From Longimicrobiales bacterium (GTDB lineage: Bacteria; Gemmatimonadota; Gemmatimonadetes; Longimicrobiales; Gaopeijiaceae), in the NCBI GenBank assembly GCA_028279425.1, contig JANQNV010000198.1, forward strand, positions 1-64,000: a stretch of DNA of 64,000 nucleotides, written 5' to 3'. Numbering within the stretch: the stretch's first letter is position 1; each line of letters begins with the position of its first letter. Positions 16,749-28,854 of the stretch are shown here, piece by piece. The notes below the pieces were generated by a model. It was not told the origin of the DNA, made no database searches, and saw only the letters and a program-made list of their open reading frames with translations. The position numbers were made by a program, and so were the translations under genes.

Positions 16749-19700
16749 CTATCGCGTCGCCCCGGCCTCGTCACCGCCAGCCCCCGCCGCGCGCCACGCC
16801 GCCTCCGCCTCCGCTCGACGAGCAGGGCCCTTCTCGAAGAGGTAGTACAGGGCGGGCGTGGTGGTGAGCACGAACAGCGTCGACGACAGCAGGCCACCGA
16901 TCAGAGCGTAGCCGAGCGCATTCCAGATGTTGGCGTCGGCCGTCTCGCTGAACAGCACGAGCGGGAGCAGTCCCAGAACGGTCGTGGCCGTGGTCATCAG
17001 GATCGGGCGCACCCGTTCGAGGGTGCCCCTCAGGATCGCCTCCTTGAGGCTCAAATCCGGCGTTCTTCGAACGTTGTTGATGTGGTCGACGAGCAGGATG
17101 GCGTTGTTGACCACGATCCCGCCCATCATGATCACCCCGATGTAGGCCTCTCGCGTGAAGGTGGCTCGCGCGTAGAAGAAGATCAGGAACACGCCGATCA
17201 GCGCCATCGGCACCGTCAGCAAGACGGCCATCGGCTGGCGCAGGGACTCGAAGAGCGCCGCCGTGACCATGTAGACGAGCAGAATCGAGATCAGGAGCAC
17301 CGCGTAGATCTGATTGCGTTCGTCGACCCCCCACCCCCACCCCTGCGTGACCTGGATCGTGTATCCAGCCGGGAGTTCGGTGTTTTCGATCAGGGCGTCG
17401 CGGTACAGGTCGCCCAGCTTGCGGGGGCCACGGAACTCGTACGCCACGCTGCGCTCGTACTGCTGGTTCTCGCGGTGGATGGTCGACAACACGTCGCGCC
17501 GATCGATCTCTACGACGTCTCCGAGTCGCACCGTGCGCCCGTCGGGTGTCTGGATCAGCGTTTCGCGCAGGCCGAGCACGTCGACGTAGTCGGCGTCGCG
17601 CACCTTCACCTCGTAGAAGAGGTCCTCCCCGCCCACCTTGATGCTCTGTTGGCCACCGGTGCCGGCGATCGCGCGGGAGAGCTGGTTGACGAGATCGGAC
17701 ACACTCATGTCGAACCGCGCCAGGCGGGTGCGATCGACCGCCACGGTGAACTCGGTCGCCTTGTCGCGGGTGAAGCGTCCCGAGGCGTTGGTGTCGACCT
17801 CCTGGACGCGAGCCAACCGCTCCAGGCGCCGCCCCAGATCCTCCGCGATGTCCCGCACCTTGAGGAAGTTGTAGCCGAGTACCTGGATCCGGTACGTAGG
17901 CGGACTGCTCCCCCCTCCGTAGAACGACGGACCGTAGCCCCGCACGTAGACGTCGGCTCCCGTGAAGGTGTGGCTGTACGCCAGCATCTGCTCCTTGATG
18001 GCCGGCGGAATCGCCGTGAACTCCAGCGAATCCGGAAACGTCACCTCCATGTAGGCACTCGTCTGCTGTACCGACGCCGTGAACTGCTCGACCTCGGGCA
18101 GCTGGAGCAGCTTGCCCTCGAAGAACTCCACGAGCTGATTGGTCCGCTCGAGATTGGAGCCGCGAGGGAGCGAAATCTGGATCGAGATGAACGTGCGCTG
18201 GCTGCCCCCTCCGCCCCACCGCACCCCCCGGGTCACGTACTTGTCGAAGGTGAAGCTCGAGAAGCCGAAGACCGCGAGAGTCACGAAGATCGCCACCCAC
18301 GGGTGATTCAGCGTGAATCCCACGACCGAGCCGTAGAACCGCTGGTAGAGGGGCGGGCGACGCGACGACCCCGACGCCTCGGAGGCCGCGGGGCCGACCC
18401 CGAGCGAGAACTCGGGGCGCTTGCCCTTCAGGATGCGCCCTGCGATCGACGGGATGAAGGTGAAGGCCACGAACAACGAGGCGAGCAGGGTCAGTCCGAC
18501 CACGATCGCCAGTGGGACGTAGAAGACGCGCAACTCGCCCTGGAGGTAGACGAAGGGCACGAAAACGATGAGGGTCGTCGCGGTCGAGGCGAGGATCGGG
18601 AGCACCACTTCGCGGGCGCCGTGCTCCGCGGCCACGCTCGCGTCTTCGCCCTTCTGCCATCGCCGGTAGACGTTTTCGAGCACCACGATGGAGTTGTCGA
18701 CGATCAACCCGAAGCCCATCGCGAGCCCCATCAACGTCAGCAGGTTCAGCGTCAGGCCGCCGAAGTAGATGAGGTTGAGCGAGATCAGGACCGAAAAGGC
18801 GATCGTGGCGAAGACGAGTCCCGCCGAGCGCAGCGAGCCGAGGAATACCAGGAGCACCAGGAAGATGACGACCGCCGCGATCGCGGCCCGCGCCCGCAGG
18901 TCGGTGAGCTGCCGGCGTACGTCTTCGCTTTCGTCGTACTCCAGAATGAAGCGGCTGCCGTTGGGATTGAGGTCCTCCAGCTCCGCGAGGCGCGCTTTGA
19001 CGGCATCGGCGGTGCGCACCGTGTTGGCGCCCCGCGACTTCGTCAGCGACATCGTGACGGAGGGGCGCGCGTTGATGCGCTCGAGCCGGCGGGCCTCCTC
19101 GAAGGTGTCGTGCACCGTCGCCACGTCGCCGATGCGCACGACGGTGCCGTCGACCGCCCGAATCGGCGCGAGGCGAATATCGTCGGCGCTCTGCGGCCGA
19201 TTCACGATGGTGACGGTGCGCTCGTTTTCGTCCTCCCGGATGATCCCCGCCTCCTGGACGAGATCGAGCTCGTTGATGCGCTGATAGACGACGAAGGGGT
19301 TGAATCCCAGCGACCGCACCTTCTCCTCGTCGACCCGGATCTCGATTCGGCGTTCGCGCCCCCCGAAGACCCGTGTAACCGCCACGCCATCGATCTGGTT
19401 GAGCTCGGGCGCGACGACGTCTTCGAGATGCCGGTGCAGCGCCTCGAGGATGAACGGGCCGGTGAACGAGTAGCTGAGGAAGGGGCGCTGCGCGTCCTGG
19501 AATTCGCGCGGCACGTACGGCTCCACCACGAGTCCGCGCACGCCGGGCGGTAGATCCTCTTCGATCGCGGCGATCCGCTCCGAGAGCTCGAGCCGCACGA
19601 AGTCCATGTCGGCGTCGCGGTCGAAGGCGACCTCGATCGAGGCCCTTCCTTCGTAGGAGTCCGACTTGATGCTGTCGACCCCCTGCACCTGCTGGATGGC

Positions 19701-19901
19701 CGCCTCGAGCGGTGACGTCAGGAATGCCTCGACCGTCTCGGGACTCGACCCGGCCCAGCTGCCGCTGACCGTCAGCCGCGGCAACTGCGTGTCGGGCAGG
19801 AACTCGATCGGGATGTTCTGCCACGAGAAGAGACCGAGAAGCGCGACGGCGGTGTAGGTCATCGCCACGGCGACCGGGCGACGGATGCTGAGGCGGATCA
19901 T
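16749..19901 (-). CDS. Efflux RND transporter permease subunit (second of a tandem pair)
   Basis: Inner-membrane, proton-driven pump of the AcrB/HAE-1 superfamily, 1050 residues, with two repeats of six TM helices and large periplasmic loops. The TM4 motif is LIVDNSIVVLENV: the first proton-relay Asp is kept and the second is Asn, as in many HAE-family pumps. Its ATG overlaps the TGA of the preceding RND gene by one base (TGATG). With the membrane-fusion and TolC-like genes upstream it forms a four-gene efflux operon. A pair of unequal RND subunits suggests a heteromeric pump like MdtBC. Substrate cannot be inferred. Confidence 0.93.
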   Translation of the reverse strand: MIRLSIRRPVAVAMTYTAVALLGLFSWQNIPIEFLPDTQLPRLTVSGSWAGSSPETVEAFLTSPLEAAIQQVQGVDSIKSDSYEGRASIEVAFDRDADMDFVRLELSERIAAIEEDLPPGVRGLVVEPYVPREFQDAQRPFLSYSFTGPFILEALHRHLEDVVAPELNQIDGVAVTRVFGGRERRIEIRVDEEKVRSLGFNPFVVYQRINELDLVQEAGIIREDENERTVTIVNRPQSADDIRLAPIRAVDGTVVRIGDVATVHDTFEEARRLERINARPSVTMSLTKSRGANTVRTADAVKARLAELEDLNPNGSRFILEYDESEDVRRQLTDLRARAAIAAVVIFLVLLVFLGSLRSAGLVFATIAFSVLISLNLIYFGGLTLNLLTLMGLAMGFGLIVDNSIVVLENVYRRWQKGEDASVAAEHGAREVVLPILASTATTLIVFVPFVYLQGELRVFYVPLAIVVGLTLLASLFVAFTFIPSIAGRILKGKRPEFSLGVGPAASEASGSSRRPPLYQRFYGSVVGFTLNHPWVAIFVTLAVFGFSSFTFDKYVTRGVRWGGGGSQRTFISIQISLPRGSNLERTNQLVEFFEGKLLQLPEVEQFTASVQQTSAYMEVTFPDSLEFTAIPPAIKEQMLAYSHTFTGADVYVRGYGPSFYGGGSSPPTYRIQVLGYNFLKVRDIAEDLGRRLERLARVQEVDTNASGRFTRDKATEFTVAVDRTRLARFDMSVSDLVNQLSRAIAGTGGQQSIKVGGEDLFYEVKVRDADYVDVLGLRETLIQTPDGRTVRLGDVVEIDRRDVLSTIHRENQQYERSVAYEFRGPRKLGDLYRDALIENTELPAGYTIQVTQGWGWGVDERNQIYAVLLISILLVYMVTAALFESLRQPMAVLLTVPMALIGVFLIFFYARATFTREAYIGVIMMGGIVVNNAILLVDHINNVRRTPDLSLKEAILRGTLERVRPILMTTATTVLGLLPLVLFSETADANIWNALGYALIGGLLSSTLFVLTTTPALYYLFEKGPARRAEAEAAWRAAGAGGDEAGATR

Positions 19902-22900
19902 CAGTCGGCTCCCGAGGCGGGGATCGGCTCGAGTCGAGGTTCATCCCGGGGCGACCCCTGCGCCCGCAGGCGAAGATCTTCGACGGTCTGGTACACCACC
20001 GGGACGACGATCAGAGTGAGGAGGGTTGCGACGATGAGGCCACCGATCACGGCGATGGCCAGGGGCGCCCGGAGGTCGGCTCCACGCCCGATCCCGAGGG
20101 CCATCGGGAGGAGGCCGAGCACGGTCGTCACCGTCGTCATGAGGATGGGGCGAAGCCGCACCCGGCCGGCCTGCAGGATCGCCTCCCGCAGGACCATCCC
20201 CCGAGCTCGCGCCTGGTTGATGAAGTCGACCTTCACGATCGCGTCGTTGACTACGATTCCGACCAGGATGACCACACCGATCAGACTCATCGTATTGAAG
20301 CCCTGCCCGGAGACCCACAGCGCCAACACCGCGCCCACCAGGGCGAGAGGAACCGCCATCAGGATCGTGAGCGGGTGCACGAAGGATTCGAACTGCGCGG
20401 CCAGGATCATGTAGACGAGGATCAGCGCCAGCGCGAACGCGAAGGTGAGATCGCGGAAGGAGCGCCGCATCTCTTCGTTTTCGCCGCCGACCTCCATGCG
20501 CAACTCGCGTGAGCTCGTGTAGCCGCTGAGTTCGGCCTCGATCGCCGTGATGGCGCTGCCCAGACCGCCCCGGACGACGTCGGCGTACACCGGGATCACC
20601 CGCCCCTGCTCTTCCCGCCGCACCTCCGCCGGGCCGATTGCATCTCGAATCCGCACGAGCTCACGGATCGGAACCCCCTGCACTCGAAGCCCTTCGAGGG
20701 TAGAGCGCTCGTAGCGGAGATCTCTCGGATAGCTGACCACGACGGGAATCTTGCGATCGAAGTCGACGTACTCCGTCGCCCGATCCCCCCGCATCGCACG
20801 ATCGACCGTCGCCGAGACTTCGCCGGGCTCGATTCCGTACTGGGCCGCCTGCTCGGTGAGGATCTCGACGTCGATCTGCGGGGTGCCCTCTTCGGCGCCC
20901 ACCCGCACGTTGCCGAGCATGTCGAGCTGCGCCAGGCGGGCCCGCACCTCCTCGGCCCGCCCCATCAGGAGGCCCAGGTCGTCTCCGCGCACGCGCACCG
21001 ACACGTCGGCGTCGGACCCCCCCAGAATGGTGCCCAGCGCCGTGGCCTGCCCCGCCTGGAAGGACAGCGCCCCCGGCGGGAACGCGCCCTGGAGGGGTGC
21101 CAGGCGGTCGAGTACGTCGGCCGTGCGCACGCCCTCGAGCAGGCGCACCTGGAACTGCGCGGTGTTCAGGCCGGTCTCCTCCTGACCCTCGGCGTAGGCG
21201 CGCACGTCGCGCCCCACCCGGCCGAACACCGCCTCGACACCGGGATCCTCGAGCAACGCCGTTTCGATCTGTTCGGCCGCCTCGGCGGTGGTCTCGATGC
21301 CCACCCCCTCGTCGAGCTGGAGCCGGATGTCGAACGCCCCCTGATCGACGTTGGGCAACAGGTCGCGCTGCAACATCGCACCGAGCGCGAGTGTGCCGAG
21401 GAGCGCGAGGGTCGACAGCCCCAGGACACGTCCGGGATGCACGAGCGACCACTCCAGCGCGCCGTGGTAGCGCTCGGCGAAGCGGTCGAAGGCCCGATCG
21501 AAGGCGTCGAGGAACGGTCGAGTCACCCGCCCCACCGTCCGGCCGAAGCCCGACCACCAGAACTCCGCCAGCGACCGCGCGAGACGCACGACGAAGCCGA
21601 TCACCTTGAAGGGGGCGAACACGATGGCGAACCACCCCCACTGCACCCAGCCGAGCCCTTTGGGCCGCGCTCGCAGCTCCGGATCGGGATCGGGGGCCTT
21701 CGCTTCGCCCCCCGAGAAGCGCGCGGCCAGCGCAGGCAGCAGAGTGAGCGCGACGAGCAGAGAGGCGATGAGCGAAAAGGCCACCGCCAGAGACAGATCG
21801 CCGAACAGCTCCCCGGCGACCCCTTCGACGTAGATGATCGGGCCGAAGACGGAGATGGTCGTGAGGGTGGAAGCGGTGATCGCGCCCTGCACCTCTTCGG
21901 CTCCGATCGCGGCCGCCTCGAGCCCCGACTTCCCCTCCTCGCGGTGCCGGAAGACGTTTTCGAGTACGACGATGGAGTTGTCGACCAGCATGCCCACGCC
22001 GAGGGCGAGTCCACCGAGACTCATGATGTTGAGCGAGACGCCGGCCGCCTCCATGAGGGCGAAGGTGCCGACCACGGAGATGGGGATCGCGGTGGCGATG
22101 GCGAAGGGATAGCGCGAGTCGCGCAGGAAGAGGAAGAGGACGAGGAAGGCGAGAATGCCCCCGAAGACCAGCGCCTGGACCACATTGCTGATCGACGAGG
22201 CGATGAACCCCGCCTGCGAGTAGGCGACGTCGAGCTGGATCTCCGGGAACTCGAGGCGCAGCAACTCCAGAACGTCGTCGACGGCGCGGGCGACGGTGAC
22301 CGTATTCGCCCCCGACTCCTTGAAGATGAGGAGCCCCACCGACTCGACTCCGTCGTAGTACGCCATCGACTCGCGCTCGGCGAAGCCGTCGGTCACGGTG
22401 CCGATGTCCTGCACGCGCACCAGCCGGTAGCCCGGCTCCCCCTCCTCGTCGGTGTCGCCCGTGGCCTGCTGGGCCACCACCACGTCGGCGATCTCCTCGA
22501 CCGTCTGGAACTCGCCCATGGTGCGCAGCGGATAGCGGTACCGACCCTGCAGGATCGTCCCGCTGCCGCCGCTGACGTTGGACTGCGCCAACGCCTGGCT
22601 GACCTGCGCGATCGTGAGTCCGTACGCATCCATCCTACGGGGGTCGACCTCGACCTGGATCTCGCGGTCGAGTCCCCCCGACACCGCCGCCTGCGCGACG
22701 CCGTCGAGCTGCTCGAGCCGTCGCCGGAAGACCGTCTCGGCGAGCTCTTTGGTCGTCCACAGATCCTCCGGCCCTGCGACGCTGAGCGTCATGATGGGCT
22801 CGGACTCGGGGTCCACCCGCAGGATCCGGGGGCGGGTCGCCGTCTCGGGAAGCCCCTCGCGCAGGTTGTCCATCCGCTCCCGCACGTTGAGCATCGCGTA

Positions 22901-23206
22901 GTCCATGTCGGAGCCCCACGCGAACTGCAGCGTGACCAGGCTGACCCCCTCGCGCGACATCGACGACACCCGCTCGACCCCGGATACGGCTGCGGCCTCG
23001 GCTTCGACCCGCTCCGTGATCAGCCGCTCGACCTCGGCCGGCGCGACGTCGGGATACGAGGTGTAGACCACGAGCCTCGGGTAGCTGACGTCGGGCAGCA
23101 GGTCGATCGGCAGGCGGATGTAGCTGATCGCCCCGAGGAGGATGACCGCGAGGAACAACATCGCGACCGCAACCGGACGCCGGGTCGAGGTGCGGGGGAT
23201 CGACAC
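19901..23206 (-). CDS. Efflux RND transporter permease subunit (first of a tandem pair)
   Basis: 1101-residue AcrB-type pump. The N-terminus RRPVAVAMLFLAVILLGAISY is the first TM helix, and TM4 carries MLVDNSIVVLENVFRHREEG with a D-N pair. It is longer than its downstream partner mainly through a cytoplasmic segment between TM6 and TM7 (around residues 490-570). It begins 3 bases after the TolC-like gene ends and overlaps the second RND gene by one base, so stoichiometric expression is likely. Confidence 0.93.
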   Translation of the reverse strand: MSIPRTSTRRPVAVAMLFLAVILLGAISYIRLPIDLLPDVSYPRLVVYTSYPDVAPAEVERLITERVEAEAAAVSGVERVSSMSREGVSLVTLQFAWGSDMDYAMLNVRERMDNLREGLPETATRPRILRVDPESEPIMTLSVAGPEDLWTTKELAETVFRRRLEQLDGVAQAAVSGGLDREIQVEVDPRRMDAYGLTIAQVSQALAQSNVSGGSGTILQGRYRYPLRTMGEFQTVEEIADVVVAQQATGDTDEEGEPGYRLVRVQDIGTVTDGFAERESMAYYDGVESVGLLIFKESGANTVTVARAVDDVLELLRLEFPEIQLDVAYSQAGFIASSISNVVQALVFGGILAFLVLFLFLRDSRYPFAIATAIPISVVGTFALMEAAGVSLNIMSLGGLALGVGMLVDNSIVVLENVFRHREEGKSGLEAAAIGAEEVQGAITASTLTTISVFGPIIYVEGVAGELFGDLSLAVAFSLIASLLVALTLLPALAARFSGGEAKAPDPDPELRARPKGLGWVQWGWFAIVFAPFKVIGFVVRLARSLAEFWWSGFGRTVGRVTRPFLDAFDRAFDRFAERYHGALEWSLVHPGRVLGLSTLALLGTLALGAMLQRDLLPNVDQGAFDIRLQLDEGVGIETTAEAAEQIETALLEDPGVEAVFGRVGRDVRAYAEGQEETGLNTAQFQVRLLEGVRTADVLDRLAPLQGAFPPGALSFQAGQATALGTILGGSDADVSVRVRGDDLGLLMGRAEEVRARLAQLDMLGNVRVGAEEGTPQIDVEILTEQAAQYGIEPGEVSATVDRAMRGDRATEYVDFDRKIPVVVSYPRDLRYERSTLEGLRVQGVPIRELVRIRDAIGPAEVRREEQGRVIPVYADVVRGGLGSAITAIEAELSGYTSSRELRMEVGGENEEMRRSFRDLTFAFALALILVYMILAAQFESFVHPLTILMAVPLALVGAVLALWVSGQGFNTMSLIGVVILVGIVVNDAIVKVDFINQARARGMVLREAILQAGRVRLRPILMTTVTTVLGLLPMALGIGRGADLRAPLAIAVIGGLIVATLLTLIVVPVVYQTVEDLRLRAQGSPRDEPRLEPIPASGAD

Positions 23207-23209
23207 CGA

Positions 23210-24703
23210 TCAGCCTCCCGCCGCCGGGCGCACCGGCCCGCCGACCGCCGTCTCCAGCGCGATCAGCGCATCGACGAAGCCGTAGCGCGCCTGGATCACC
23301 TGACGGCGCCCGGTGGCCTCCTGCTCGACGGCGTCCTGGAGTTGCTCGAAGGTGCGCGTGCCGAGGCGGTACTCCTCGCGAGCGAGGCGGAGCGCGTCTT
23401 CGGCGATTTCGACCGAACGGGTCGCCAGCCGGAGCGTCTCGCCCTGGTCACGCAGGTTGATCAGCTGCGAGCGTACCTCCTGCTCGGTCTGGAGGCGCGT
23501 TTCGTCGAGCGTCTCCTGCTGGTTGTCGAGGGTGACTTTGGCCTGGGCCTCGGCAGCGGTACTGCCGAAGTAGTCGTTCAGGAAGGGGATCGAGAGCGAG
23601 GCGCTGAAGGAGCTCTGGACCCGATCCTCGAGACCGAACGAGAAGAATGCGTCGCTCTCGCGGGTCTGCAGGAACGGCCCCCAGTTGTAGCGCAGATTGA
23701 TGGTGGGCCACTTCCACTGACCCGCTGATGCGACGCCGACCCGCGCCTCATCGACACCCGCCACCGCCGTACGCACCTGCGGATTGTCGCCGAGCGCGCG
23801 GGCCACCAGTCCGTCGGCGTTGAGCGTGGCCGGGTCGAACACAGGGAGGGCTTCCGACTCGGGGCGGAGGGCCGGCAGTTCGGTATCACCCAACGTCGTC
23901 CGTAGCGTCAACAGCGCCTGCTCATATGAGGTGCGCTGCTGCTGAATCGCCAATAGCTGCTGCTCCACCGCGAGTTCCGCCTGCAACACGTCGACCTGGG
24001 TGTTTCGAGCGAGCCCAAAGAGACGCTCCGCCGTCTCGAGATCCCTTCGTCGGGCGTCGGCGATCGCCTCCTCGACCGACAGCAACTCCCGCTGCTCGAG
24101 AGCGTCGAAGTACTGCCGCTCCACATCTGCGCGAAGCGTGGCCTGCGCCCCGTCCAGGGTCAGCACACGGCCGCGGTTGACCTGCTCCTGGCGGCGGCGC
24201 TCGTTGAGGAAGCTGAGTCCCTGGATGCTCCAGTTGAGGGTGACGCTCTGCCCGCTGTTCGACGTGTAGATCCAGTTCGCCTCGGGGTTCTCCAGAGGAA
24301 AGCCGAGGGGGTCGAGGGCCACCCTCTGAAGATTCCCATTATAGGTGGTCGAGAAGAGGTTTCCTTGTACGTCCGGCAAGAGCGACCCGAACAAGCTACT
24401 CCGCGTCTCGACCCCGTTCAGCCCCAGCGAGTTTTCGGCTCGCCGCACGGCGGGGTTGGCTCCGAGCGCGATCCCGAGCGCGTCGTCGAGCGACAGCACC
24501 AGGGTGTCGGGTTGCTGGGCCTGAGCGGCGAGGGGCAGCACGCCCATCCCGAGCGCGGCACAGACGAGCCCCACCCCGACAGCGGTCGCCCCTCTCCCGG
24601 CGGCACCCCTCGAGCGATCGGACCTGCCCACACCGCATCCCCCACCACCACGCCCGGTCGGCGCCCGGCCCGTGGCGACCCGCGCGCTGCCGAAGGCCCT
24701 CAC
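23210..24703 (-). CDS. TolC-family outer-membrane efflux protein
   Basis: Outer-membrane channel of the tripartite pump. 497 residues from the GTG at 24703, which overlaps the TGA of the membrane-fusion gene (GTGA). A signal peptide (GLVCAALGMGVLPLAAQAQ) is preceded by a long Arg/Gly-rich stretch, so a later GTG nearer the signal peptide is also possible. The mature part has two long coiled-coil repeats with TolC-type patterns (LDDALGIALGANPAVRRAE, then REEYRLGTRTFEQLQDA). The longer ATG reading from 24883 is antisense-like and rejected. Confidence 0.88.
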   Translation of the reverse strand: MRAFGSARVATGRAPTGRGGGGCGVGRSDRSRGAAGRGATAVGVGLVCAALGMGVLPLAAQAQQPDTLVLSLDDALGIALGANPAVRRAENSLGLNGVETRSSLFGSLLPDVQGNLFSTTYNGNLQRVALDPLGFPLENPEANWIYTSNSGQSVTLNWSIQGLSFLNERRRQEQVNRGRVLTLDGAQATLRADVERQYFDALEQRELLSVEEAIADARRRDLETAERLFGLARNTQVDVLQAELAVEQQLLAIQQQRTSYEQALLTLRTTLGDTELPALRPESEALPVFDPATLNADGLVARALGDNPQVRTAVAGVDEARVGVASAGQWKWPTINLRYNWGPFLQTRESDAFFSFGLEDRVQSSFSASLSIPFLNDYFGSTAAEAQAKVTLDNQQETLDETRLQTEQEVRSQLINLRDQGETLRLATRSVEIAEDALRLAREEYRLGTRTFEQLQDAVEQEATGRRQVIQARYGFVDALIALETAVGGPVRPAAGG

Positions 24704-25905
24704 GACCCCGGCCTCCCCCCTGCCCGGCGCGGGTTGTCGACGAGTTGGATGCGCGTGTCGTGGGCGAGGTAGTGGTGCCCATCGATCAGCACGATGCTGC
24801 CGGGGTCGATCGGATCGGTGTCCTCGCTCGGCACGATCTCGATGAACTGCTCGTTTTCGCGCCCCGTCTGCACGTAGTTCCACTTCGCCAGCCCCTCGTC
24901 GTCTTCGCCCTCGAACAGATAGACCATCGTGCGCCGACGCCCCTCACCTCGCTCCAGGATGGCCGATCGAGGCACCAGGATCCGATCGGCGAAGCTACGG
25001 GCATTGATCGTCACATCGGCGTACATACCCGGTTTGATTCGACCCTGGGGGTTCGGAAGGTGGATGGTCACCCGCCCCGTCCGCTCTGCCGAGACCACCG
25101 GGTTGAGCGTCTGGATCCTGCCGGTGAAGGTCTCGCCGGGGAACGCCGCGAAGGTGACCTCGGCGGTGCGCCCCTCGGCCAGGTAGCCCAACTCGGCCTC
25201 GAGCACGTTGACCTCGACCTTGATCGGATCGAGATCTACCACGGTCATCAACTCGGTGCCTGCCCCCGCCTGCTGCCCCTCCACCACGAGCAGGTCGGCG
25301 ATGCGCCCCTCGAAGGGCGCCCGGACCGTCGCCCGCTCCAGGCGCAGTCGAGCCTGCGCGAGCGTCACCTCGGCGGCCCCGAGCCCACTCGAAGCCCGCG
25401 CCACCGTATCGCGCCGCGCCCGGATCCTCGGATCGTCGATCTCGTCGTCGAAGAGGATCGTGGCTTCGTACTGGGCCTGGGCGTTGGCCCGCTCGGCCTC
25501 GGCCCGCGCCACCTCCAGGGCGAGCTCCAGCGTGTCGATCTGCACGATGGTCGAGCCGACCGAGACGCGTGAGTTCTCCCGAACCGGGACCGCCTGGATC
25601 ACCCCCTCCACCTGGCTGGCCACCGTGGCGCGCCGGAAGGCCTCGGCCTGACCAGACGCCTGGACGGTTTCCCACAGCGTGTCGCGCACGACGGGTACAC
25701 CGCTGACCGGCTGCGGGAGGTCGGTGCTGAACTGATCGCCGGCCGCCCCCAGATCGACGCCGAGCGAGTCGGCGGTCGCCGTCGCGGCGCCGGGTCCCTC
25801 TTCATCGGTCGATTCGGGCCGCAGCCGCCACCAGGTGCCACCGGCGACGGCCGCGACGACGATGACGATGGTGAAGATCGAGAGCGTGCTTCGCGAGAAT
25901 GCCAT
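24700..25905 (-). CDS. Efflux RND periplasmic adaptor (membrane-fusion protein, HlyD-like)
   Basis: 401 residues. One N-terminal TM anchor (STLSIFTIVIVVAAVAGGTWW) is followed by a lipoyl-like half (GVIQAVPVRENSRVSVGSTI), an alpha-hairpin, the second lipoyl half (ATVRAPFEGRIADLLVVEGQ) and beta-barrel segments (GRIKPGMYADVTINA). It bridges the RND pumps to the TolC-like channel. The start at 25905 puts the anchor at the N-terminus; an ATG at 25986 adds 27 Arg/Ser-rich residues and is less likely. First gene of the efflux operon. Confidence 0.92.
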   Translation of the reverse strand: MAFSRSTLSIFTIVIVVAAVAGGTWWRLRPESTDEEGPGAATATADSLGVDLGAAGDQFSTDLPQPVSGVPVVRDTLWETVQASGQAEAFRRATVASQVEGVIQAVPVRENSRVSVGSTIVQIDTLELALEVARAEAERANAQAQYEATILFDDEIDDPRIRARRDTVARASSGLGAAEVTLAQARLRLERATVRAPFEGRIADLLVVEGQQAGAGTELMTVVDLDPIKVEVNVLEAELGYLAEGRTAEVTFAAFPGETFTGRIQTLNPVVSAERTGRVTIHLPNPQGRIKPGMYADVTINARSFADRILVPRSAILERGEGRRRTMVYLFEGEDDEGLAKWNYVQTGRENEQFIEIVPSEDTDPIDPGSIVLIDGHHYLAHDTRIQLVDNPRRAGGRPGS

Positions 25906-26031
25906 CGGCGCTTCGAGTCCGGGTGGGAGAGTACGTCTGCTCGGCCGTCTCGGCCTTCGAGAATGAGACGTAGAGCTCCGGTCCACCGTTGCCGCAACTC
26001 CGCCCGACCCTACGACCGACCTGACCCGCGC

Positions 26032-26061
26032 ATTCTATGCGAGCCCTCGGGGATCAGGCAA
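26032..26061 (-). promoter_or_regulatory. Probable promoter of the efflux operon
   Basis: TTGCCT (26056-26061), 18 bases, TAGAAT (26032-26037) on the minus strand, giving a leader of about 120 bases before the membrane-fusion gene. No regulator gene is adjacent. Confidence 0.45.
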
Positions 26062-26123
26062 TGAACCGATGCGACAGGGTGTACGGGTAAGCTACGCCCG
26101 CGCCTCGGGAGCGATACCTCACC

Positions 26124-26152
26124 GTGACAAGCGCGACGCGGCGCGATAGCGT
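26124..26152 (+). promoter_or_regulatory. Possible promoter producing a leaderless transcript
   Basis: GTGACA (26124-26129), 17 bases, TAGCGT (26147-26152). The expected start would fall at or next to the ATG at 26158, and no ribosome site precedes that ATG, which fits leaderless translation. The -10 is only a moderate match. Confidence 0.35.
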
Positions 26153-26157
26153 CGTCC

Positions 26158-27378
26158 ATGCTCCTTCTTCGACTCTCCACCGGCCTCGCCGCCCTGCTCG
26201 CTGCGGCCGCGTGCGATCCGGGAGTCGACATCGACCCGGCGTGGGCCGACGCACCCCTCCCCTCGCCCGGTGACCCCGTCGACGACGAGGTGGCCGACGC
26301 CGGAGCGTGGCTCTTTCGGCGGAATTGCGCCGCATGCCACCACATCGGTGACTCGTCGATGCTCGGACCCGACCTCGCCGGGGTGACCCGCCGCCGGAGC
26401 GCACCGTGGATCGCCGCGATGATCCGGAATCCGGATTCCATGCTGGTCGCCGACTCGATCGCGCAGCGCCTCCTCGCGGAATACCAGGTTCCGATGGCGA
26501 ATCGCCGACTCGACGGAGCTCGGGTCCGGGCGTTGCTCGAGTTCCTGCATCGCGCCGACGCGGGCGAGGGAGGCGGCGCCCTCCAACCCGCCGCAACCGC
26601 CGACACGAGCGGCGTGACACCGTCGGGACTCGCTTGGCGACGCTCCGGACGGGGCCCCCTGGTGGTTCTGGTCCACGGCACCAACCTCGACCGCGCTGTC
26701 TGGAGTCGTCTGCGCCCCGCTCTCGCCCGGTCGCGAACCGTCGTGGAGTACGACCTTCGCACCCACGGAGGCTCGAGCGACACCCTCGGGCCCTGGTCCG
26801 AGGTCGGTGACCTCGACGATGTCTTGAGTGCGGCGGGGGTGGCCAGTGACGATCCGATCACCCTCGTTGGCCTCTCCGCCGGTGCCGGCATCGCGCTCGA
26901 GTTCGCCCTCACTCGCTCGTCGCGCGTCGAGCGCCTCGTGCTCGTGTCGCCCTCCGTGCGTGGATTCGCTCCGCGGCCGGGCGAGGTCCCCGACGTCTTC
27001 GGAGGGGTGCGCGACGCCCTCGAGGGGGGCGATTCGACGGCAATCGGGGACGCCATGGTCGCCCTGCCCACCTTCGAGGTCGGCGACGCGGATCGGCCCG
27101 ACGTCGACGCCATGGTCCGACGCAACCTGCGCCTCTTCGCGATCGACCCGACGTGGGCCATCCCCGCCGTGCCCGCCCCCCTCGAGCGCCTCGGCGAGGT
27201 GGCAGCTCCCGCGATCGTGGTCGTCGGGACGCTCGACTTCCCTGCCACCCGCCGACTCGCCGACGAATTGGTCGCCGGGCTGCCCTCGGCACGCGCGCAG
27301 GTGGTCGACGGGGGGCGGCACCTGCTCCCCATCACGGACCACGCGGCCGTCCTCGAAGCGATTCTCGGGAGCGAATAG
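26158..27378 (+). CDS. Cytochrome c / alpha-beta hydrolase fusion lipoprotein
   Basis: 406 residues with an unusual domain order. Residues 1-19 are a lipoprotein signal ending in AAAC (Cys19). Residues 45-130 form a small class I cytochrome c: haem motif CAACH at 57-61 and probable axial Met113 in VPMANRRL. A short Ala-rich linker leads to an alpha/beta hydrolase (about 155-406) with VVLVHGTN, the nucleophile elbow GLSAGAG (Ser240), a late Asp in GTLDFPATR and His in GGRHLL, so the catalytic triad looks complete. The product should sit in the periplasm, anchored to a membrane. Substrate unknown. The TAG stop directly abuts the ATG of the next gene. Confidence 0.88.
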   Translation: MLLLRLSTGLAALLAAAACDPGVDIDPAWADAPLPSPGDPVDDEVADAGAWLFRRNCAACHHIGDSSMLGPDLAGVTRRRSAPWIAAMIRNPDSMLVADSIAQRLLAEYQVPMANRRLDGARVRALLEFLHRADAGEGGGALQPAATADTSGVTPSGLAWRRSGRGPLVVLVHGTNLDRAVWSRLRPALARSRTVVEYDLRTHGGSSDTLGPWSEVGDLDDVLSAAGVASDDPITLVGLSAGAGIALEFALTRSSRVERLVLVSPSVRGFAPRPGEVPDVFGGVRDALEGGDSTAIGDAMVALPTFEVGDADRPDVDAMVRRNLRLFAIDPTWAIPAVPAPLERLGEVAAPAIVVVGTLDFPATRRLADELVAGLPSARAQVVDGGRHLLPITDHAAVLEAILGSE

Positions 27379-28854
27379 ATGGAGCTCGACGGCCTCGACA
27401 TCTGCCTCCTGACCGACCAGGACCTCGAGGCCGGCCTACCTCTGCCGGCCGACGACTGGCCCTGCGACCCGCGCCCCTACCTCCCCGAAGCCGAGTGGGT
27501 GGTGCAGCCGCTCGAGAAGGAAGACGCGGTGGCGACCCTGCTCCAGGTGGCCCGCCAGGGCTTCGACGTCTACTTCAACCTGTGCGACGGCGCGTGGGAC
27601 GAATCCAGGCCGGGCATCGAGGTGGTGCATACCCTCGAGCGCCTCGACGTCGCCTTCACCGGCGGACACTCCGGCTTCTTCGAGCCCTCGCGCGAAGCGA
27701 TGAAGCGGGTCTGCGCGGCGACGGCGGTCGGGTACCCCGCCTACGTCGAAATCCGGTCGGACGAAGACATCGAGCGCGCCGCGGAGAGCCTGCGCTTTCC
27801 CCTGATCGTGAAGCACCCGTCGAGCTACGCAAGCGCGGGACTGACCCCGGCCTCCCGCGTCGAGACCGTCGACGAGCTGTACACGCAGGTGAGCCGGATG
27901 CGCGGACTGTTCCACGGTGCTCTCGTCGAGGAGTTCATCGAAGGCGACGAGTACACGGTGCTGGTGGCCGAAAATCCCGACGACCCCGACCGGCCGGTCA
28001 CCTACCAGCCGCTCGTGTACCGCTTTCCCGAGGGAGAGTGTTTCAAGCACGAGGACCTCAAGTGGGTCGACTACGACGGACTCGAAGCTCGCCCGGTCGA
28101 CGACCCGGCGCTCGACGCGCGCCTTCGCGACTGCTCGGCCCGCTTCTTCCGAGGGCTCGACGGATCGGGCTATGCGCGATGCGATATCCGCGTCGACCGG
28201 TCCGGGAAGGTGTTCATGCTCGAACTCAATCCCAATTGCGGTCTCTTCTACCCGCCGACGGACCCGTCCAGCGCCGATCTGATCCTCCAGTGGGATCCCG
28301 CCGGCCACGCGGGCTTCGCGCGCACCGTCGTACGCGCGGCTCTGGCGCGACATGAACGGGCGCGTCGAACGTGGCGCGTCGAGCACGTGCCGGGGCGAGG
28401 CTACCAGCTCGCGGCCGCGGTCGCGCTCGACGCCGGCGCCCTGATCCTGACCCGCGAAGAGGGCCAGCACCCCATCGTCGCGCGCAGCCACCTCGAAGCC
28501 ATGCCCGAGGCCGAACGCCGCGAGGTACTGCGGGGTGCGTGGCCGCTCGGCGGCGCCGCCTGGGCCGTCCCCGCGGACGATCCGATGCAATGGCGGCCGA
28601 TCAACCACAGCTGTGATCCGAACGCGTGGGTGTCGGGGCTGCAGCTCGTGGCTCGACGACCCCTGGCCCCCGGCGACGAGATCACGGTCGACTACGCCAC
28701 CCTCTTCGACGATATCCACCCGGAAACGGAATGCGACTGCGGCACGGTCGATTGCCGAGGCACGATCGGTGGAGCGGCCTGGCAGTGTGATGAATTGGAG
28801 AGGTACGGCAGTTTCGTCGCGGACTACATCCTGGAGCGCAGGCGCTATCTCTGA
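27379..28854 (+). CDS. ATP-grasp ligase / SET-domain methyltransferase fusion
   Basis: 491 residues, no signal peptide, so cytoplasmic. Residues 1-310 resemble D-Ala-D-Ala ligase-type ATP-grasp enzymes: VYFNLCDG near the N-terminus, ATP-binding Lys145 in LIVKHPSS, and the metal-binding run ELNPNCG (Glu282, Asn284). Residues 335-491 form a SET domain: GRGY (339-342), NHSCDPNAW (409-417) and GDEITVDYA (432-440). A post-SET zinc motif has Cys452, Cys454 and Cys459, to be completed by Cys412. SET proteins methylate lysine; ATP-grasp enzymes join an acid to an amine. Substrates are unknown. The start abuts the previous stop, with GGGAG just upstream, indicating coupling. The end overlaps a convergent gene by 10 bases. 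Confidence 0.9.
   Translation: MELDGLDICLLTDQDLEAGLPLPADDWPCDPRPYLPEAEWVVQPLEKEDAVATLLQVARQGFDVYFNLCDGAWDESRPGIEVVHTLERLDVAFTGGHSGFFEPSREAMKRVCAATAVGYPAYVEIRSDEDIERAAESLRFPLIVKHPSSYASAGLTPASRVETVDELYTQVSRMRGLFHGALVEEFIEGDEYTVLVAENPDDPDRPVTYQPLVYRFPEGECFKHEDLKWVDYDGLEARPVDDPALDARLRDCSARFFRGLDGSGYARCDIRVDRSGKVFMLELNPNCGLFYPPTDPSSADLILQWDPAGHAGFARTVVRAALARHERARRTWRVEHVPGRGYQLAAAVALDAGALILTREEGQHPIVARSHLEAMPEAERREVLRGAWPLGGAAWAVPADDPMQWRPINHSCDPNAWVSGLQLVARRPLAPGDEITVDYATLFDDIHPETECDCGTVDCRGTIGGAAWQCDELERYGSFVADYILERRRYL

Follow-up and report, generated by a model that had tools for sequence, protein, structure and literature searches.

The window, a 64,000-nucleotide stretch of DNA from a Longimicrobiales bacterium (genome G000), carries on its forward strand at positions 26158–27378 a gene for a predicted 406-residue lipoprotein in which a cytochrome c domain is fused to an alpha/beta hydrolase domain, as assigned from the open reading frame, Pfam matches, a codon model and a full-length relative in genome G002. 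On the reverse strand (16749–25905) lies a set of RND efflux genes, assigned by Pfam and the codon model and comprising two RND pumps (named by sequence reading), an outer-membrane factor and a membrane-fusion protein. The divergent intergenic region shared by the fusion gene and the membrane-fusion gene (25906–26157) contains an inverted repeat, CGCATtctATGCG, at 26029–26041, which overlaps a reverse-strand, promoter-like site of the efflux gene and is also present in G001; it may be merely the efflux promoter.

Immediately downstream, a Pfam-assigned forward-strand gene for a 491-residue protein (27379–28854) abuts the fusion gene, the stop codon TAG being followed directly by ATG, and is probably co-transcribed with it. 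Its product combines an ATP-grasp domain resembling that of D-Ala-D-Ala ligases with a SET domain of the lysine methyltransferase type. Matches to this protein were found in 8 of the 58 genomes searched, including G000, G001 and G002 and excluding G003 and G005, and in G048 (locus L085) its parts are separate, an ABC transporter there being surrounded by three genes for ATP-grasp proteins and one for SET alone.

Domain architecture of the fusion protein

The frame around the gene measures only 416 residues from stop to stop, so the ATG at 26158 is nearly forced as the start. A codon model fitted to the window scored the gene as coding and preferred its strand, and a Pfam search of the antisense open reading frame (26010–27401) gave no match. 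The N-terminus (26158–26214) was read by eye as a signal peptide with a lipobox-like AAAC motif at residues 16–19, making Cys19 the probable lipidated residue; the relative in G002 has LTAC in frame, downstream of a start position that is not settled.

The cytochrome c domain spans residues 41–135 (26278–26562) and matches Pfam Cytochrom_C over residues 47–131 (32.4 bits against a curated cut-off of 21.3). The CAACH motif at residues 57–61 (26326–26340) is a predicted haem c attachment site, which would carry haem covalently, and CxxCH is present in all 11 cytochromes compared. Met113 (26494–26496), the probable axial ligand of the iron, is invariant in all 12 rows of an alignment of the window protein with 11 of the 23 cytochrome loci from a contig scan; the other 12 loci were partial, split or weak matches, or were not chosen. 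By our own count on the alignment, Met113 lies opposite Met100 of the Rhodothermus marinus cytochrome c (Protein Data Bank (PDB) entry 3CP5), which we take to be the axial ligand of that protein.

Entry 3CP5 (also 6CUK) belongs to the same family (E 5e-13), agrees in its CxxCH and Met positions, and matches the fold of the cytochrome half in an AlphaFold model with a TM-score of 0.81 on target length. Unlike the fusion, it is a lone cytochrome. The cytochrome domain in PDB entry 2L4D, presumably from Pseudomonas putida, is of the same family (E 1e-13) and resembles the fusion in that a cytochrome of similar type is joined to a non-cytochrome domain; however, the entry names SCO1/SenC, not a hydrolase, as its partner.

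The linker (residues 136–163; 26563–26646) is poorly conserved with respect to G002. The hydrolase domain that follows (residues 164–403; 26647–27366) matches Pfam Abhydrolase_6 over residues 169–400 (71.9 bits, cut-off 26.3) and Abhydrolase_1 (49.7 bits, cut-off 25.8). It has a complete Ser-Asp-His triad in the standard order for alpha/beta hydrolases: Ser240 (26875–26877), the nucleophile in a GLSAG motif, and Asp360 (27235–27237), the acid, are invariant in all six rows of the hydrolase alignment, and His388 (27319–27321), the base, is His in the five rows that reach it, the row from G158 stopping short. The three residues follow strands 234–239, 352–357 and 381–384, as the fold requires, in a part of the AlphaFold model that is of low confidence. 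The hydrolase half would be expected to be catalytic.

The nearest PDB hydrolases by sequence, 2XUA, 3R0V and 4UHC, are ordinary esterases and lactonases. The 3-oxoadipate enol-lactonase PcaD (2XUA, E 1.8e-10) and a Thermogutta esterase (4UHC, E 1e-9) share the alpha/beta hydrolase family and the triad by sequence, and neither entry is described with a haem domain. Membership of the PcaD family was rejected at 56.4 bits against an NCBIfam equivalog cut-off of 255.85, as was that of the BioH pimeloyl-ACP esterases at 49.8 against 206.95; matches to macrolide esterases were also far below the cut-off. No family of known function passed its cut-off for the hydrolase half.

The AlphaFold model of the whole protein has a mean pLDDT of 58.1 and a pTM of 0.42; its alignment rows cover the cytochrome only, and the model is good for the cytochrome half and of low confidence for the hydrolase half. 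Viral contigs searched for hydrolase relatives to serve as alignment rows yielded none. The best Foldseek match of the hydrolase half of this low-confidence model is 3R0V (TM-score 0.51 on target length). Both Cytochrom_C and Abhydrolase exceed their Pfam cut-offs in the window protein, and the anatomy given in the original prediction, with a predicted lipid anchor, a haem site, a probable Met ligand and a full triad in a single protein, is right by sequence.

Conservation and distribution of the fusion

The protein in G002, a single-contig genome of the same genus, is 64% identical to the window protein over residues 12–403, and both of its domains also exceed the Pfam cut-offs. The cytochrome domains are 75.8% identical (72/95) and the hydrolase domains 61.9% identical (148/239 aligned). 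The linker varies in both sequence and length, with 33.3% identity (7/21 aligned) and gaps at 7 of its 28 positions. Codon differences at positions 1/2/3 number 18/14/47 in the 95 codons of the cytochrome and 63/58/125 in the 239 codons of the hydrolase, against 11/10/12 in the 21 aligned codons of the linker. Third-position differences dominate in the domains and not in the linker, a pattern by which both domains are judged to be kept as protein. Taken together, the gene encodes what its sequence identifies as a real two-domain periplasmic lipoprotein, predicted to be lipidated.

Searches with the full-length protein gave matches across both domains in 2 of the 58 relatives searched (51 of which had some match), in 2 of 154 genomes of the order (21 matched at 1e-20), in 2 of 394 genomes of the class (10 matched at 1e-28) and in 2 of 298 genomes of the phylum (89 matched at 1e-10); the two are always G000 and G002. 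The class and phylum sets are samples, and up to 12, 4 and 6 candidates were scored per genome for order, class and phylum, respectively, so that distant fusions could be missed. Among loci L001–L063, both domains share a frame only in L001 and L004 (the same as L054). At 1e-15, hydrolase relatives were found in 7 of 121 genomes of the family. The contig scan, which used two peptide patterns both taken from the cytochrome, returned 23 loci, all of them cytochromes without this hydrolase in frame, and none of 161 matching plasmid records covered 80% of the query. The fusion is kept in a second species, but the rule across the family is two separate proteins, to which the fusion is the exception.

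No report of a cytochrome–hydrolase fusion was found in a non-exhaustive search of the open-access literature. Each half belongs to a known family and, to the extent of that search, the pairing is apparently a new combination.

The locus in related genomes

The RND efflux neighbourhood recurs in G001, G003, G005, G021 and G022, with the efflux set on one side and ispG further along on the other (no ispG lies in the stretch seen of G003). In G004, a genome of 78% completeness, no match for the efflux gene was found. Homologues with one half only, which the original prediction had counted against its reading, occur at this same locus within the genus: G003 and G005 have the cytochrome lipoprotein alone, 59–63% identical over the matched part and with no hydrolase, and G001 has the hydrolase without a CxxCH. 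The cytochrome lipoprotein also stands alone in three further genomes of the family, G021, G022 and G031 (the last with an unsettled gene start). At the RND–IspG locus, the standalone proteins of G003, G005, G021 and G022 end soon after the cytochrome. Those of G003 and G005 end just past the residues RAD, where the linker of the fused proteins begins, which places the fusion junction at the natural end of the cytochrome. In G003, the lone cytochrome is directly followed by a gene for a 940-residue protein that combines glycosyl hydrolase family 20 and an S41 peptidase (L057, 8967–11789).

In G001 the locus holds a hydrolase gene with its own lipobox, then genes for an S9 peptidase, for the ATP-grasp/SET protein and for a cytochrome c of a different type; in G000 the fusion is followed by the ATP-grasp/SET gene. 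The parts are scattered in G002, with the efflux set at 0.86 Mb, the fusion at 1.55 Mb and the ATP-grasp/SET gene at 3.0 Mb. The fusion gene, about 0.7 Mb from the efflux locus, lies near genes labelled transposase-like by sequence reading, and the efflux–IspG locus holds a different, di-haem-like cytochrome gene instead. In G001 and G002, the interval from ispG to the efflux genes encodes a lipoprotein-like protein of 435–440 residues with two CxxCH motifs (L055, 3230–4537; L079, 4901–6223), and the L055 protein has a weak C-terminal match to DUF3471.

Relatives of the cytochrome adjoin nosZ in G194 and G201 and genes resembling those for cytochrome c maturation (a label from sequence reading) in G034, contexts that suit the role of an electron shuttle. 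In loci L088 (8655–11005) and L089 (6231–8596), the nosZ-like gene directly follows the cytochrome relative; its identity comes from the Pfam nos_propeller match in G194 and from gene order in G201. A cytochrome relative in this position is a possible electron donor to N2O reductase.

Fifteen standalone relatives of the hydrolase were inspected by eye: 11 have a lipobox-like N-terminus, three another Sec-type signal and one none. Standalone exported hydrolases of the class, unlike the fusion, have no cytochrome domain in frame; four of them (L008/L058, L033, L034 and L035), judged by eye to be exported, are 34–41% identical in the domain.

The history of the fusion was approached through trees. 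A tree of four proteins of the locus (IspG, MFP, OMF and RND, with no IspG row for G003) groups G001 with G002 (UFBoot 97) and leaves G000 outside, which would suggest an ancestral fusion followed by loss of the cytochrome in G001; a search for a cytochrome remnant in the upstream region of G001 found none. The hydrolase tree instead places the two fused proteins together (UFBoot 89), yet in an AU test on the hydrolase the species-tree grouping was not rejected (p 0.08; third grouping, 0.41). Given this conflict, the sequences may be accounted for by a single fusion with a single loss, by two separate fusions or by transfer of the fused gene.

A probable pair of uncoupled modules on one membrane anchor

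The fusion is probably best explained as two working domains that share one anchor and a flexible linker and are not directly coupled in their chemistry. The front half would be a class I cytochrome c whose family members at this locus are, as a rule, small lipid-anchored electron shuttles that stand alone, and the back half an alpha/beta hydrolase from a normally exported group whose members are often separate lipoproteins. A hydrolase that was already periplasmic would have been gained at the C-terminus of the cytochrome, a few residues past its natural end, with the hydrolase's own signal peptide and lipobox left out. The cytochrome would then carry single electrons from one periplasmic redox partner to another, the hydrolase would use the usual Ser-His-Asp route to cleave a small substrate (an ester, a lactone or a thioester), and the flexible linker and shared anchor would hold both domains at the membrane. 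The two domains, their active-site residues, their conservation in two species and their separate occurrence elsewhere were computed directly; from these we infer the lack of coupling and the kind of substrate. Neither G000 nor G002 yielded any close member of this cytochrome subfamily other than the fused copy, so its role may have changed once it was fused.

The cytochrome might alternatively have become mostly a folded anchor or spacer for the hydrolase as the working part, with the haem domain dropped in G001. This would fit the lipobox-bearing hydrolase that stands in the place of the fusion in G001, behind a similar divergent intergenic region, and the lack of any member of this cytochrome subfamily found in that genome. 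We nonetheless consider it unlikely, as between the fused species the cytochrome is better conserved than the hydrolase (75.8% against 61.9%) and keeps its CxxCH and Met.

It is improbable that the protein is a redox-coupled enzyme, in which the haem senses the respiratory chain and gates the hydrolase, or oxidizes the product of the hydrolase, such as a quinol released from an ester. Both active sites look intact and both domains constrained in the two fused species, and the domains are held at one membrane site. However, cytochrome-only and hydrolase-only versions are both found at this locus within the genus and the linker varies, two observations that argue against tight coupling, and the nearest hydrolases of known structure are of ordinary esterase and lactonase type. 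The functional tie advanced in the original prediction, a hydrolase linked to respiration or sensing redox state, is unsupported; exported hydrolase relatives across the class also lack such a haem domain. In a more specific form, the respiratory chain would set the redox state of the cytochrome, and this state would turn a periplasmic esterase or lactonase on and off, which appears quite improbable. We know of no direct electron-to-hydrolysis control of this kind, and the cell would gain just that if it were true.

Read-through from one lipoprotein gene into its neighbour, nearly neutral and with a hydrolase tail that adds little, would account for a fusion seen in only two of the 154 genomes of the order, but is very improbable: the triad is kept, the third-codon-position bias extends across the whole hydrolase, and the gene in G002 is intact although it lies far from the ancestral locus, near the transposase-like genes. 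Although the source genome is fragmented (339 contigs, 89.8% complete, 5.8% contamination), the fusion is almost certainly no artefact of assembly or gene calling, since the single-contig genome G002 of the same genus carries the identical architecture at 64% identity.

Two genomes with the fusion are too few to demonstrate selection for the fused state itself. It is unusual for a haem electron carrier to be paired with an enzyme that does no redox chemistry, and the genus supplies its own domain experiment, having the cytochrome alone, the hydrolase alone and both fused. This set makes the question of coupling between redox state and hydrolysis directly testable with natural proteins, and if there is no coupling, the fusion would clearly exemplify two exported modules on a shared membrane anchor.
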